Source: Chamaelirium japonicum (Eukaryota; Streptophyta; Magnoliopsida; Liliales; Melanthiaceae). Taken from it: DNA of 64,000 nt. The stretch lies in NCBI GenBank assembly GCA_947650365.1, contig OX393553.1, positions 36,406,526 through 36,470,525 of the forward strand, in the 5' to 3' direction. A program made the translations under genes and the position numbers. This document shows, piece by piece, positions 27,901-36,900 of this stretch. Below the pieces are notes generated by a model that was not told where the DNA came from, did no database searches, and saw nothing but the letters and a program-made list of their open reading frames with translations. Numbering within the stretch: the stretch's first letter is position 1; every line of letters starts with the position of its first letter.

Positions 27901-30900
27901 AACCCAGCTCTGAAACCATGTTAGATACCCTCACGCCCCAAAACTCGTGTTATAAGGGGAAGTCCACAGAGGGCATATTAAGCGGGCATTAGGTGCCCCC
28001 TTTACCGATGTGAGACTAACCAGTGGACTTCCTCAACAAGGGGATCGTTTGTAAATCGAAAGATCAAGGAGGTCTTGGTGTAGTCAATCTCAGAGATTTT
28101 AACAAAGCCCTTCTAGGGATATGGTGGTTGAGATTGCATAACGATCAAAGAGTTAGTTGGACCTTGGTTATTCATGATCGACACTTCATAAGATTCTCCC
28201 CTATTCAAGTTCAGAGGAGGGTGTCGGGCCTCATTTTCCCTTTCTGGAAGGGTATTCTAAAGGTAGCGGACGCCTACAAATGTGGGAATAAATTGGTGCT
28301 CAGGGATTGGAAGCACATTCGATTACGGAAAGATAATTGGTTGGGGGAAGTGCCTATCAGCTCGATGTTCCTCGAACTTTATGAGCTAGCATGGGATGGG
28401 GCAGCCACTATACGTTCTCAATGCACCAGCTTTGATTGGATTACTACTCTGGATCTCAAGTGTCAAAGAGCTATTCCCATCCATTTGACGTTTCAACTAT
28501 AGGATCTTCTGTCCATTTTGAATAATTTCTCTGTCAAAGAATACCTGGATCATGTGCTCTGGAGATGGTCCAAGTCCGATACTTTCTTGGCCAAATCCTT
28601 TTGCATATTTATTAATGCTGGGGGTACAATATGCCCTATTGCCTTGGGTCTCTGGAAGATAGGATCCGCACTGAAAACCAGGATCTTTATGTAGCTGGTT
28701 AATAACAATAAGATCATTGCTGCATGAACTTGAAGAAAGGAAGCAATCGATCATATCTGTCTTCTCTTGGCCAATCTGTGGGGGTAGTAAGGAAGATCCT
28801 TTCACCTTTTCCTCAGATGCCATTTGGTTAAATTCCTTTGGTCCACTGTTAAAGATAAACTACATATCAGACATAGTGTGGGAAGTATCAGATCCCTATG
28901 GACCTCTTGGAGGAGGGTCCCAACCATTTGGAGGACCGCCTGGGACGTACTGATTATTGCCATATGCTAGGGCATTTGGAAAGAGAGGAACAATAACATT
29001 TTCAAAGACAAAACAAAGCAACCCAGAGAAGGTTTGGCAGCTGATTCTCATCAGAATCCATTATTGGATGCATGGACTTTTAGAACCAAAGAAAGCTAAG
29101 CTAAGTACATTACTATGTAATAGTCCAGAGATCTCATCCATTTGATGTCCATTCTCCTTCATTTCTAATTATCAACTTGTAGTCCATCTGGAGGATGTAG
29201 AAAATGTCGTCGGATAAGAGAAAGTTTTGGGATGTGTTCATGGTACCAATTTGTTGGTCAATCTAGTTAGAGAGGAATCTGAGGATTTTCAGTATGAATG
29301 TAGCTTTTCTATGGAAGTCTTGTAGTGGACATTAGATAATTGAGGATGTTTGCTTCTGCTTTTCTAGTGACGGCTAGAAGTCCTTTTTTTTAGTTTATTG
29401 TATTTTCTATTTGTTTCTTGAGAAATTAGCAATTCCTCTTTGATGTAATTCCATTTTTATTTCAATAAATTGGTAGGGGTCTATGCTAAACACCCCCCTT
29501 CAATCATGAGGGATTTTTAAAAAAAAGGGCTCAGGCAAGAGGGAAGGGAAACCAGACCTCCTCTTTCATTGGAGAGGCAGTCCATGACCTCCTCTTCTGT
29601 GGGACCCACCATGGGATAGAGGAATCCCGTGATTCCTCTCTCACGAGAAGGAGGCATCCTCCTTTCCTTTGTAGTACTTAGATTCCCAAAAGGCTAAGTA
29701 TTGAGAGCTATATTTGGAAGCAACCTTTTTTTTCAATTGGGCATTTCTTTCCCTTTTTAACTTGAAAGTAAATAAGGAACCATGAAACATGTTGTTGTAT
29801 GTGTATTCTTCCCTCTCCCGTTCATCCCTAAGAGTCCTTATACATATTAGAATTAAGAGAAAGTAGTGGGGATAAAAATGCAAATTCATGTAAACCCTTT
29901 TCCTTCTTTCTTCTCTTTTCTTTCTTGTATTGGCATAAAACCCACATGCTATGAATTTAAAAGTCAAGAAGAAAATTGTAGATAAATAGATAGGCATACT
30001 CCTACGTAATTCGTGTTCCCAGATTAGTTTAGGAAATATTAGATGAGTTAGGGTTAGTCTCCTAGACTCCTAGGATGGTCTATTTAAGGATGGGACCTCC
30101 ACCCTTTGTAATCCAATCATTATTCAATAAAATTAGAGAATTTAGATAGCTGCATTATATTTGTGAAGAACCTAAACCCTTGGATACCCACCTCCTCACA
30201 AAACTGGCTTGTAAGGGGAGGTCCAAGGCGGGTATATAAGCAGCTCATTACCCGCTCCCATTACCGATGTGGGACTAACCCGTGTGAGGCATGACCATCT
30301 CAATACCCCCCCTCACGCGGGACATGTAAGGGCACAATCTGGAGGAGCTCCCGAAGCGGGTCTGGCTCTGATACCATGTCACCTAGCATGAAGAGAGAGA
30401 GAGAGAGAGATGCTAGGTTTTGGGGAGAATGGAATGGACTCTATTGGGCCAATAGGCCAAGTATATATCCCATATACATGTGTAGCCATATGAGTCTATA
30501 CATCTATATAACAAGGGACGTGGTTTTGTGCTGACTAGACAAAATGGAACAAAAAAGCTGACTAGGACAAGCTGACTGGACAAAAATGAACCGAATAGAT
30601 CTAACCATTCGTTCAAAAATCAACACACAATCTCTCCTTAGTTTCAAATCCCAACCTATTTAAACTGCACTAAATCCCTAAAATCCTGATCCATTTAAAC
30701 TGAACTAAACCTGACCGTTCATCCCGTGATCGTTGTTCGCATCAATGGCTATAAACCCGCCTGCTGAAATTTCGGCCGCCCCAAACCATTGGGTCGATCT
30801 CGAGGAATCCGTTCGAACAGAGACAGCTGTGATTGATCGATTATGGGGGGAGGGGGAGTTGGTCGTGCCGAAGGCGCCCGCTTCGTGCCAATTAGCACGG

Positions 30901-33900: not shown

Positions 33901-36900
33901 TAGGAGAAGCCATCTCACAGGACCCAGAGGAAGATGGAGTCAGAGAGTGAAGAAACTCCATCTGATACAGCCTACCTGGCCTACGATCTGCTCCAATCTG
34001 TCGACCAGTACGTAGATTCTGCACAGAACAAGAGGGAGTGTAAAGGTCACAGAGCAGCCAGAATCACATATAGCACTAATAGAAATGAGATGCATGTAAA
34101 GCGTGGAAGCGTGAAGCACATAGGGTAAGGAAAGGCGGCCTGTGGGATCGGAGGACATAGTAATGGATCCAAATTGTGAGATGGCTAAACAAGAACCATC
34201 CGCAGTGTGAATCGGTGGGAGATGTGTCACAGGACGACAAACGGTAGGCATTTGGAGTCATGTGGTGTGAGGCTCCCGAATCCAGAATCTAGATGGCAGA
34301 GCTACCAGATAAAGCAGAGAGAGTTGAAACGCTGGAGGGGCCATCGGTAGGAGCAGACTGCTGAGACAGTCGAAGCTGTTCTATCTTCTCGCGGGGGGAC
34401 TGAAAGTCCCTAGCTAAGGCCGGATACACTAGTGCAGATGAAGGGGCCATGCCCAATATTCCTTGAAGATTTGCGGGGAGAGAGGAGCCCCTGGAGGGGG
34501 CTACGGTCTACGAAGTCATCATCGACGAAGAGCTGCAGGGCTGTGTAAAGGCGACGGTAGGCCGGCGGGTTCAGCGTGACGGTTGCAAACTAGATGGCTC
34601 GTCGACTGTGTCGAAGGAAGTCGGACCTCTAGCAACCGGTCAGATTTGGAGGTAAATACGTTGGATTTGGATAGGGAGGTGCCAAAACTTCATATTTAGG
34701 GTGGTTACAAGGTGAGATCGCAGCAGTTTAGATCTGATCGGAGAGATCAGATCAGAGGATCAACGGTGGTGAGGATGCAGACTGGTCGCGTGTAGAGGAG
34801 GTCTCGCGCTGGCTGTGCGGAGGTCGCGTACAGAGGAGTCTCGTGCTGGCTGTGAGGAGGACTGCGCACACCGGCTGCAGAGGGCCTGGAGGGCTGCGCG
34901 GATCCTATCTGAGGAGTGTTGCGGGATCAGATCTGGGAGCTCGGGAGGCAAACCGATGTCGCACGGATCTGAGGAGTGCTGCGGTAACAGATTTGGAGTG
35001 GTTGGCTCGTCAGAGAAGAATCAGAGCCGCGCGGATCTGAGGAGTGCTATAGATCTGAGGAGGCGTGCAGATCTGTGGATCTCATCGGTTTCGGAGTGGT
35101 GGAGAGGATCCAGATCTGTAGATCTGAGGAGGCGTGCAACAGTCAGTGCCAGAGTGGTGCTAGAGTTGACGGCCGGAGTGGTGCAGCAGTCGGTACCGGA
35201 TTTGAGGGCGCAGGAGTTGATGCACAGATCTGAGGAGACGTGCAGCAGTCTGATCTGAGAAGGTCGGCTCTGGAGTTGATGCAGACTTGCGGTCAGATCT
35301 GCCGTCAAATCTGGATAGAGAGAGGATCGGCTCGCCGGAGCTGCTGCTGCGATCTGATTTTGGAGGTCGCCGGGAGGAGAGCTCGGTGATCGCAGATCGG
35401 AGCGGAGCTTGAGGGGTCAAAGTCAGGGATGAACCTGCCTTGATATCATGTGAAGAACCCAAACCCTTGGATACCCACCTCTTCACAAAACTGGCTTGTA
35501 ATTAGAGGTCCAATGCGGGTATATAAGCAGCTCATCACCCGCTCCCATTACCGATGTGGGACTAACCCGTGTGAGGCATGACCATCTCAACAATTTTTAG
35601 AAGAGCTGAATTGGTCTTTTTCTCTTTTACCCTCTCTTCTCTAGTGTGGATGTCACCATGACTCACCCCTATTAGCTGGGTCTTTTTCTTTCTTTGTGGT
35701 ATCTGGATAACTAGGTAGCTATTCATACAACTGGGGGGTCATTCATATTGCCAGTGATGTAACCCAATATTCCATGATAGGGTAGAGAATTATTTTGTCA
35801 TGGAGAAGGTGGAAGGAAATTTCAATCTTTCATGTAAGGACCAAAAATCAGTTTGCAGATATTTTTAGTAAGTTTCCTAGAATTAACATCAGGTTATTTG
35901 CTCTAAAGTGGGGAATGGGAGATATGTATGTGCTAGCTTGAGGGAGTGTTAGTCTGCTAGTATTAGATTTGAACCAATTCTTTCATATACTCAATTTTGT
36001 GCTTGAAATTGTGTCTATTCTTATCAGATTATCGAATTTGTGCAGTTTCTTTTCCTGTCATTTCTTTCTCTTTCGCAATGTTCTTAATCTCTCTTTTTTT
36101 TAAAGAATTTTGCTGTGATCCCATGAAATTATAACAAAAAGAATGCAGATAAATTCCTAAGTTTGATTATATTCTGACAATACATGCAACTGGTCTCCCT
36201 CTGAGTGATTTTGTAAAGGCCTCTAATAATAGAGTGCATTTTTGCTGCCGGCTTGGTATGCTGCGTTTGCTTCTGGCCCAATCGCAGCAAGCCACGTCGG
36301 CAGTTTAGAGGGGCATAGTGGGGACTGCACTTGCTACTGGACTTACCTTTCCCATTATGCCCCTTTAAATGGGTGACGTGGCTTGCTGCGATTGGGCCAG
36401 AAGCAAATGCAGCAAACCAAGCTGGCAGCAAAAATGCACTCCTAATGATAACACCACGTGTGGAGAATTCAACAGAGCCACTCAACCTATGAGCTTTACT
36501 GATTCCTCTCATGAACCATTTGAAGTGGAAATGCTGTTTTAAAAGGGTTAAATCAAGAACCGTTTCCATAATGATGTAGATCACGTTTTCTCATATTTGT
36601 TTGCAGTGATGCTTAGATGACTAGGATTTTGTTTTAATAACATTATCTTAATAGAATCGCGGTGTAAATTGATTATAGGGGCTTCTACCATAGCAGGTTA
36701 AGTTGCGTAAATACAAATTTGATTCCTCACTATTATAAAACGAGCAGCGATTTTACTTTTCCAATTTACTATTTTCGTCCTATGTTTAGGACATTCCATG
36801 ACGATGACGTTGGTCAATGTGGAAAACAAGCAATCTCCTCAACAGACTTTTAGAGGTTTAGCAGAGAGCCTTGCTGATATGTTGCCTTGCCTTTCTGTGA

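Follow-up and report, generated by a model that had tools for sequence, protein, structure and literature searches.

How can a coding-free retroelement come to hold the body of an unrelated retrotransposon between its own two long terminal repeats (LTRs)? This question is raised by a mosaic on the minus strand of the DNA stretch analyzed here (the window), which comprises 64,000 nt from Chamaelirium japonicum and corresponds to C5:36406526-36470525 of the host genome assembly (1.52 Gb, 3253 contigs). The assembly was searched as a whole. The mosaic combines a terminal-repeat retrotransposon in miniature (TRIM) of the TRIM1 family with a copia element, and the two are joined at their primer-binding sites (PBSs). 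We consider it probable that the locus is an old chimeric retroelement, which would have arisen when TRIM and copia RNAs packaged together were reverse-transcribed and a strand was transferred between them at their common PBS.

Read to the base on the minus strand, the order is TRIM LTR, degenerate PBS, copia body, polypurine tract (PPT), copia LTR, perfect PBS, TRIM interior, PPT, and TRIM LTR. The original prediction for this DNA had claimed this order, joins at the PBS edges, TRIM LTRs of equal length (144 bp), and near-matching flanks, and all of this was confirmed to the base. The parts, in the direction of the minus strand, are as follows.

35593-35597, no strand: 5' flank of 5 bp, AAAAT on the minus strand, putative target duplication with a 4/5 match to 30157-30161
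35449-35592, minus: TRIM1 5' LTR, 144 bp, TGTTGAG..TTCACA, repeat of the 3' LTR; the family is present at many loci
35437-35448, minus: degenerate PBS TGATATCAAGGC, 9/12; TGGTTTCAGAGC is the in-register counterpart in a native copia
31065-35448, minus: copia body, 4384 bp including the PBS, frames broken, with RVT_2 and SH3_retrovirus fragments
31065-31073, minus: copia PPT AAGGGGGGG; a related copia at 58.05 kb has its PPT in the same position
30377-31064, minus: copia 3' LTR, TG..CA, 688 bp with an insertion and about 148 bp without; insertion-free LTRs of the same kind occur at loci L093, L094, and L095
30365-30376, minus: perfect PBS TGGTATCAGAGC, where the copia LTR meets the TRIM interior; 13 more loci have this type of junction
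30306-30364, minus: TRIM1 interior with PPT GAGGGGGGG at 30306-30314; other TRIM1 copies have interiors 76-87% like it
30162-30305, minus: TRIM1 3' LTR, 144 bp, starting with TA instead of TG, pairing with the LTR at 35449-35592
30157-30161, no strand: 3' flank of 5 bp, AATAT on the minus strand, 4/5 match to 35593-35597

The two TRIM1 LTRs differed at 8/144 positions, and a 95% repeat linked the LTR at 35449-35592 to 30162-30303. The outer element had the features of a TRIM: two short LTRs of 144 bp, a non-coding interior of 71 bp including the PBS, and a PPT. The inner copia had no second LTR of its own; only the 3' copia LTR was present, and a TRIM LTR occupied the 5' place. Lying between the TRIM LTRs, the copia LTR at 30377-31064 represents an internal third LTR as in template-switching complexes, but instead of partners from one family with a switch in the R region we found unrelated LTRs and a join at the PBS. 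Random pairs of 5-mers from the 500-bp flanks agreed at four or more positions in 2.4% and at all five in 0.2% of cases. Because of this 2.4% chance, the 4/5 match between the two window flanks is, taken alone, weak evidence for a target duplication.

The copia body holds the following pieces; those matched by Pfam families lie in different frames.

34508-35436, minus: copia leader with imperfect GATCTGAGGAG-type repeats, in the place expected for gag; no gag found
34076-34288, minus: protease-like piece (Pol_BBD, E 6.8e-4, below Pfam's cut-off)
33842-34063, minus: GAG-pre-integrase piece (gag_pre-integrs, E 7.6e-5, below cut-off)
32908-33159, minus: SH3-like domain, in copia located downstream of integrase (SH3_retrovirus, E 4.2e-12, above cut-off)
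31993-32244, minus: reverse transcriptase piece (RVT_2, E 1.1e-12, above cut-off)
31458-32030, minus: reverse transcriptase piece and beyond (RVT_2, E 5.1e-9, above cut-off)

The two RVT_2 pieces follow SH3_retrovirus and the below-cut-off gag_pre-integrs match, which is the order of Ty1-copia elements. We also looked for gag in the separate frames, and no gag family was detected in the pieces scanned; the frames were broken. With broken frames and no gag in these pieces, the inner copia does not qualify as autonomous. The idea that a TRIM can gain a new interior by such an event, put forward in the original prediction, thus holds for the structure and not as a gain of function, since the copia body is frame-broken and no gag was found.

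A genome search with the copia body's initial 500 bases retrieved only the window itself and a 55-base match on contig C6 (2 candidates). The C6 match belongs to a native copia at C6:35028916, in which a copia-type LTR end is followed by TGGTTTCAGAGC and then by GGTTCATCC.., in register with the window body. Its LTR end was 79% identical to the window copia LTR over 95 bp. Of the 60 bases preceding the PBS, 18 agreed between the window and this native copia. Because the native copia is in register after the PBS but agrees at only 18/60 positions before it, the TRIM LTR at the 5' junction stands in the place of the copia's own LTR, with the exchange exactly at the PBS. A one-step nested insertion of a whole copia into a TRIM was rejected: there is no 5' copia LTR, and the native copia shows the place where it is expected.

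Apart from the window, 13 loci were read that show the order copia-type LTR, PBS, TRIM1 interior, and TRIM1 LTR (L004, L053, L057, L061 with its near-duplicate L059, L060, L093-L099, and L103). Some of these are partial copies: of the copia LTR, L004 and L053 retain just the 3' portion, and the TRIM LTR is shortened in L094 and L103. The end of a copia body precedes the LTR at L060, L093, and L099, as in the window. The search with the 3' junction gave at least 41 matches; the best 40 of 1304 candidates were scored, and among these, 11 distinct places other than the window spanned the junction. Ten of them were read, and C8:51716374 was excluded as unread. L100 (C5:48319399) was not counted as the same junction, its LTR before the PBS being different or much altered. 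L076 and L077, near-duplicate places on C9, were likewise not counted; they are rearranged and show a head-to-head fold-back of TRIM1 pieces joined at a PBS, with a copia-type LTR nearby. For the 5' junction of the window, no second copy was found among the best 40 scored of 617 candidates.

Pattern searches gave 121 places with TRIM LTR, PBS, and interior in sequence and 14 places with a copia end, the PBS, and CAGACC, while the reversed-pattern controls gave 0. We did not use 121 and 14 as a ratio, as L102, one of the 14 places, is the leader of a native copia that shares CAGACC. L102 and L103 were read afterwards; L103 is a real junction, and so is L004, a locus among the 14 that had been read earlier.

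The search with the TRIM LTR gave at least 58 matches, from which the best 40 scored of 1308 candidates were considered. We fetched 26 loci, and 24 were distinct after the near-duplicates L044 and L045 had been dropped. A foreign LTR was joined at the PBS ahead of the TRIM1 interior in 7 of the 24, copia-type at L004, L005, L041, L053, and L057 and from other TRIMs at L039 and L056; this is no genome-wide rate, as the sample was ranked by likeness to the window LTR and omitted 12 places of an array on C3. That array (G000 C3:22588586-23562887) holds 12 TRIM LTR copies that share their score and strand and lie 55-130 kb from one another, which resembles a large segmental tandem array.

Enclosure of one element by another was also found for different pairings. 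In L072, TRIM1 LTRs enclose a TRIM2-type interior plus LTR, and TRIM1 was found inside other TRIMs at L039 and L056. In L039 (positions 480-1480) three TRIM families are combined; the outer LTRs are 97% alike and enclose two interior-plus-LTR units, each joined at a PBS. L056 (813-2141) is a six-LTR array of another TRIM family, with one TRIM1 interior-plus-LTR unit inserted at a PBS.

We compared the two halves of the shared 3' junction between loci. Across 10 loci, identity between copia LTRs showed no correlation with identity between TRIM halves (Mantel r -0.15, p 0.91). The TRIM halves of the window and L061 were 96% alike, the copia LTRs 67%, and at least three copia LTR subgroups occurred among the loci with the shared 3' junction. 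Because the copia and TRIM halves vary independently over these 10 loci, the copia/TRIM junction arose repeatedly and not by the spread of one chimera. Spread of one mosaic was also rejected for the 5' junction, which had no second copy among the best 40 scored of 617 candidates, while the copia leader gave one other, short match (on C6). The proposal that shared junctions elsewhere would mean that the mosaic itself had transposed was therefore not borne out: the 3' junction does occur at 13 loci, but with several copia LTR subgroups and uncorrelated halves.

Five of the 13 further loci are short elements with two unlike LTRs (a copia-type LTR and a TRIM LTR, no copia body) in which both outer edges were readable. 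Their flanks were GGATC/GGATC at L061 (5/5; identical in the near-duplicate L059), AAAAG/AAAAG at L098 (5/5), AGATT/AGCTT at L095 (4/5), AAGTT/TAATG at L096 (2/5), and GGAAC/AAATA at L097 (1/5). The probability of two perfect target duplications in five by chance is 4.6e-5. Canonical TRIMs served as a control and showed a perfect 5-bp duplication in 11/15 distinct copies and a match of 4/5 or better in 13/15. Because the 5-bp duplication surrounds both unlike ends at L061 and L098, an integrase joined both ends at these sites, and at least some chimeras existed as cDNA before integration.

The original prediction had offered two routes to the mosaic, recombination of a one-LTR copia circle with a TRIM through the PBS or template switching at the PBS. 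The PBS stood up as the fusion point in either case. Recombination of such a circle with an integrated TRIM, through the 12-base PBS plus a few shared bases, would yield the window order exactly and would leave the target duplication of the TRIM outside, and a TRIM1 copy and the native copia L102 match at 31/36 bases around the PBS (counted by eye). A match of 12-36 bp is, however, short for homologous recombination. Circle recombination also gives no account of the target duplications around both unlike LTRs at L061 and L098. It may apply to the window locus taken alone, but we consider it unlikely, and we favor template switching because circle recombination cannot yield elements with two unlike LTRs and an outer duplication.

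The joining of separate neighboring TRIM and copia insertions by deletion or unequal recombination has a precedent in cereals, where recombinant complexes are commoner than those from template switching (20 versus 2 in about 7 Mb; PMC1950507). At the loci described here, however, no body sequence can be aligned between the joined LTRs, each of which is complete, and the fusion point is the PBS. The flanks, with 4/5 matches in the window and 5/5 at L061 and L098, also speak against this explanation, which we regard as very unlikely. Integration of a copia into the TRIM PBS with the target duplication TGGTA, followed by deletion of the 5' LTR between the TGGTA repeats, would leave TGGTA of the PBS directly after the copia 3' LTR, as is indeed the case. 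Both the target base and the deletion would have to be exact, and the same would have to happen elsewhere in the genome and between different partners (L039, L056, L072). Elements in which an outer target duplication surrounds two unrelated LTRs are left unexplained; we judge this route highly improbable. An assembly misjoin is hardly credible, as the window contains no N and the same kind of junction was seen at 13 other loci as well as in pairs of near-duplicate contigs (L059/L061; C178 and C11).

Strand transfer at the PBS could have produced the mosaic in the following way. TRIM and copia RNAs would share one virus-like particle. A minus-strand cDNA begun on the TRIM RNA would pass the TRIM LTR, PPT, and interior and halt at the TRIM PBS. 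This cDNA would now have the same 12 bases at its 3' end as the initiator tRNA has at its own, so that it could substitute for the tRNA as a primer at the copia PBS. Extension on the copia RNA would proceed through U5-R, make the ordinary first-strand jump, continue through U3, PPT, and body, and halt at the copia PBS, on which plus-strand strong-stop DNA of the TRIM (LTR plus PBS) would land. A single abnormal step would thus give the order seen in the window, and integrase would insert the product. If plus-strand strong-stop DNA of copia landed on the TRIM minus strand instead, the product would be copia LTR, PBS, TRIM interior, and TRIM LTR, the order found at other loci. The same step between identical partners would lead to TRIMs with three LTRs. 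Such tandem TRIM1 elements were found at L043, L051, and L075, with flanks matching at 4/5, 4/5, and 5/5 positions. We tentatively suggest that any cDNA stopped at its PBS mimics the primer tRNA, which might provide a general PBS-to-PBS route to tandem elements, mosaics, and elements with two kinds of LTR. If the proposed transfer is true, each fusion tells which autonomous copia shared a particle with which coding-free TRIM.

A shared integrase is suggested by the LTR ends, as 9/11 and 11/12 bases agreed between TRIM1 and the copia LTR of L060. The native copia L102 has the U5 end, the PBS, and the first leader bases in common with TRIM1. Likenesses of these kinds are among the signs by which autonomous and non-autonomous elements are paired, according to the accessible part of PMC9744471. 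Judged by these likenesses, the L060-type copia clan is a plausible candidate for the helper of TRIM1, and one integrase could serve both TRIM1 and copia ends.

Several observations weigh against the proposed strand transfer and its products. Two of the five testable elements with two LTR types, L096 and L097, had no target duplication, the flanks of the enclosing mosaics L072 and L039 matched at only 3/5 positions, and those of the window at only 4/5. The LTR ends of TRIM1 and of the window's own copia LTR agreed poorly (7/11 and 7/12). The window-like loci L060, L093, and L099 are known without their 5' ends. Each outer LTR of the window lies at a smaller distance from L045 (0.036 and 0.029) than from its partner (0.056), and the 5' LTR carries minority states found in 1-5 of 46 other copies. 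Finally, 3/12 bases are changed in the 5' PBS of the window, more than the LTR divergence of 5.6%, and fresh cDNA should have a perfect PBS.

The 5.6% divergence of the outer LTRs lies within the range of same-locus pairs elsewhere (1.4-9.2%), and the two LTRs likely, although not provably, stem from one cycle of reverse transcription. Plant substitution rates are 0.65-1.3e-8 per site per year. With these rates and a corrected divergence of 5.8%, the insertion may be roughly 2-4 million years old, a crude value based on 8/144 differences.

The 688-bp copia LTR of the original prediction was correct in total length and not as the LTR proper. When this LTR was used for a genome search, most matches ended near LTR positions 22 and 563 and had no copia around them. 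The part between is an insertion.

30503-31042, plus: Helitron-like non-coding repeat, 540 bp, with A before TC...CTAG and T behind it, inside the copia LTR; recognized by dispersed copies, its ends, the flanking A and T, and the empty site

The repeat is dispersed in the genome, with at least 47 matches, of which the best 40 were scored from 5966 first-look candidates. The insertion site was present uninterrupted, as ATTATCTA followed directly by TGTATAG, in the LTRs of L094 and L095. Because related LTRs show the site without the repeat, the copia LTR proper has about 148 bp, and the 540-bp repeat is a Helitron-like insertion into it. As in Helitrons, the repeat has a 5' TC and a 3' CTRR, lies between A and T, and has no target duplication. 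A GTGCC/GGCAC stem is present near its 3' end, and the hairpin was no better than expected by chance (25/200 shuffles equally stable). In the course of events proposed above, the repeat would have entered the copia LTR after the fusion. At L012, L028, and L034, it occurs partly in tandem or paired.

The window contains further elements. A second, different TRIM lies on the minus strand at 27713-28038; its LTRs (27713-27832 and 27919-28038) are 92% alike, and it has the PBS TGGTTTCAGAGC and a PPT. It is about 74% like the TRIM1 LTR over 80 bases and of the same type as the inner part of L072. A related copia on the plus strand at 56344-58194 consists of LTR, PBS, a GC-rich leader with a 101-bp duplication, part of the reverse transcriptase, PPT, and LTR. 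Its LTRs of 142 bp are 99% alike, and it is a recent deletion derivative. At 63664-64000 on the minus strand, a third related copia, 68% like that of the mosaic, is represented by its end and continues past the window edge. A tandem array with a 42-bp period occupies 60093-61042, and an inverted repeat at 36232-36441 has arms of 91 bases, 90% complementary, and a spacer of 28 bases.

Tandem LTR elements usually consist of like parts, so that the crossover cannot be placed, while mosaics of unlike parts reveal its position, in this case the PBS. Such mosaics offer a physical record of elements copied in one particle, which bears on the question of which autonomous element moves a TRIM without genes. 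That some elements combine two unrelated LTRs within a perfect target duplication points to a single integrase able to use either end. Swapping of LTRs between autonomous and non-autonomous elements was reportedly described for soybean by Du et al. in 2010, for related gypsy elements spreading as families. As in that account, the LTR of one element is found here with the interior of another; unlike there, a TRIM devoid of coding sequence is paired with a copia, and each chimera looks like a single event of its own.

Template-switching complexes of Triticeae, rice, and maize have an internal third LTR, two interiors, like outer LTRs, and flanking 5-bp repeats (PMC1950507). The window resembles these complexes of Sabot and Schulman (2007) in the third LTR, the two interiors, the like outer LTRs, and the proposed origin from co-packaged RNAs. 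Their partners are close relatives that switched between R regions and formed chimeric LTRs, whereas the partners in the window belong to unrelated families, each LTR keeps both its own ends, and the switch is at the PBS. Recombinant LTRs formed during reverse transcription from two co-packaged copia RNAs are known from bursts of Onsen, there within one family and mostly at R, as far as the available text of PMC5668417 goes. Tandem LTR retrotransposons and Cassandra arrays alternate LTRs and interiors and have target duplications, as seen here, and TRIMs with three LTRs occur here too; in the portions of PMC11899658 and PMC7215508 at hand, like is joined to like, the crossover is unmappable, and the choice between recombination and retrotransposition is left open. 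The TRIMs of Gao et al. (2016) share short LTRs, PBS, PPT, lack of coding sequence, and 5-bp duplications with those described here. In the sections accessible to us, that study sought helpers by likeness of whole elements and assigned them for 11/289 subfamilies, leaving 278/289 with no coding relative (PMC4717578), whereas here the partner is recorded by physical fusion. Our literature searches, whose coverage excluded most subscription journals, brought up no paper on PBS-joined TRIM/copia mosaics. Template-switched complexes and tandem LTR elements were already known, and we rate as new that unrelated partners, a TRIM and a copia, are joined at the PBS.

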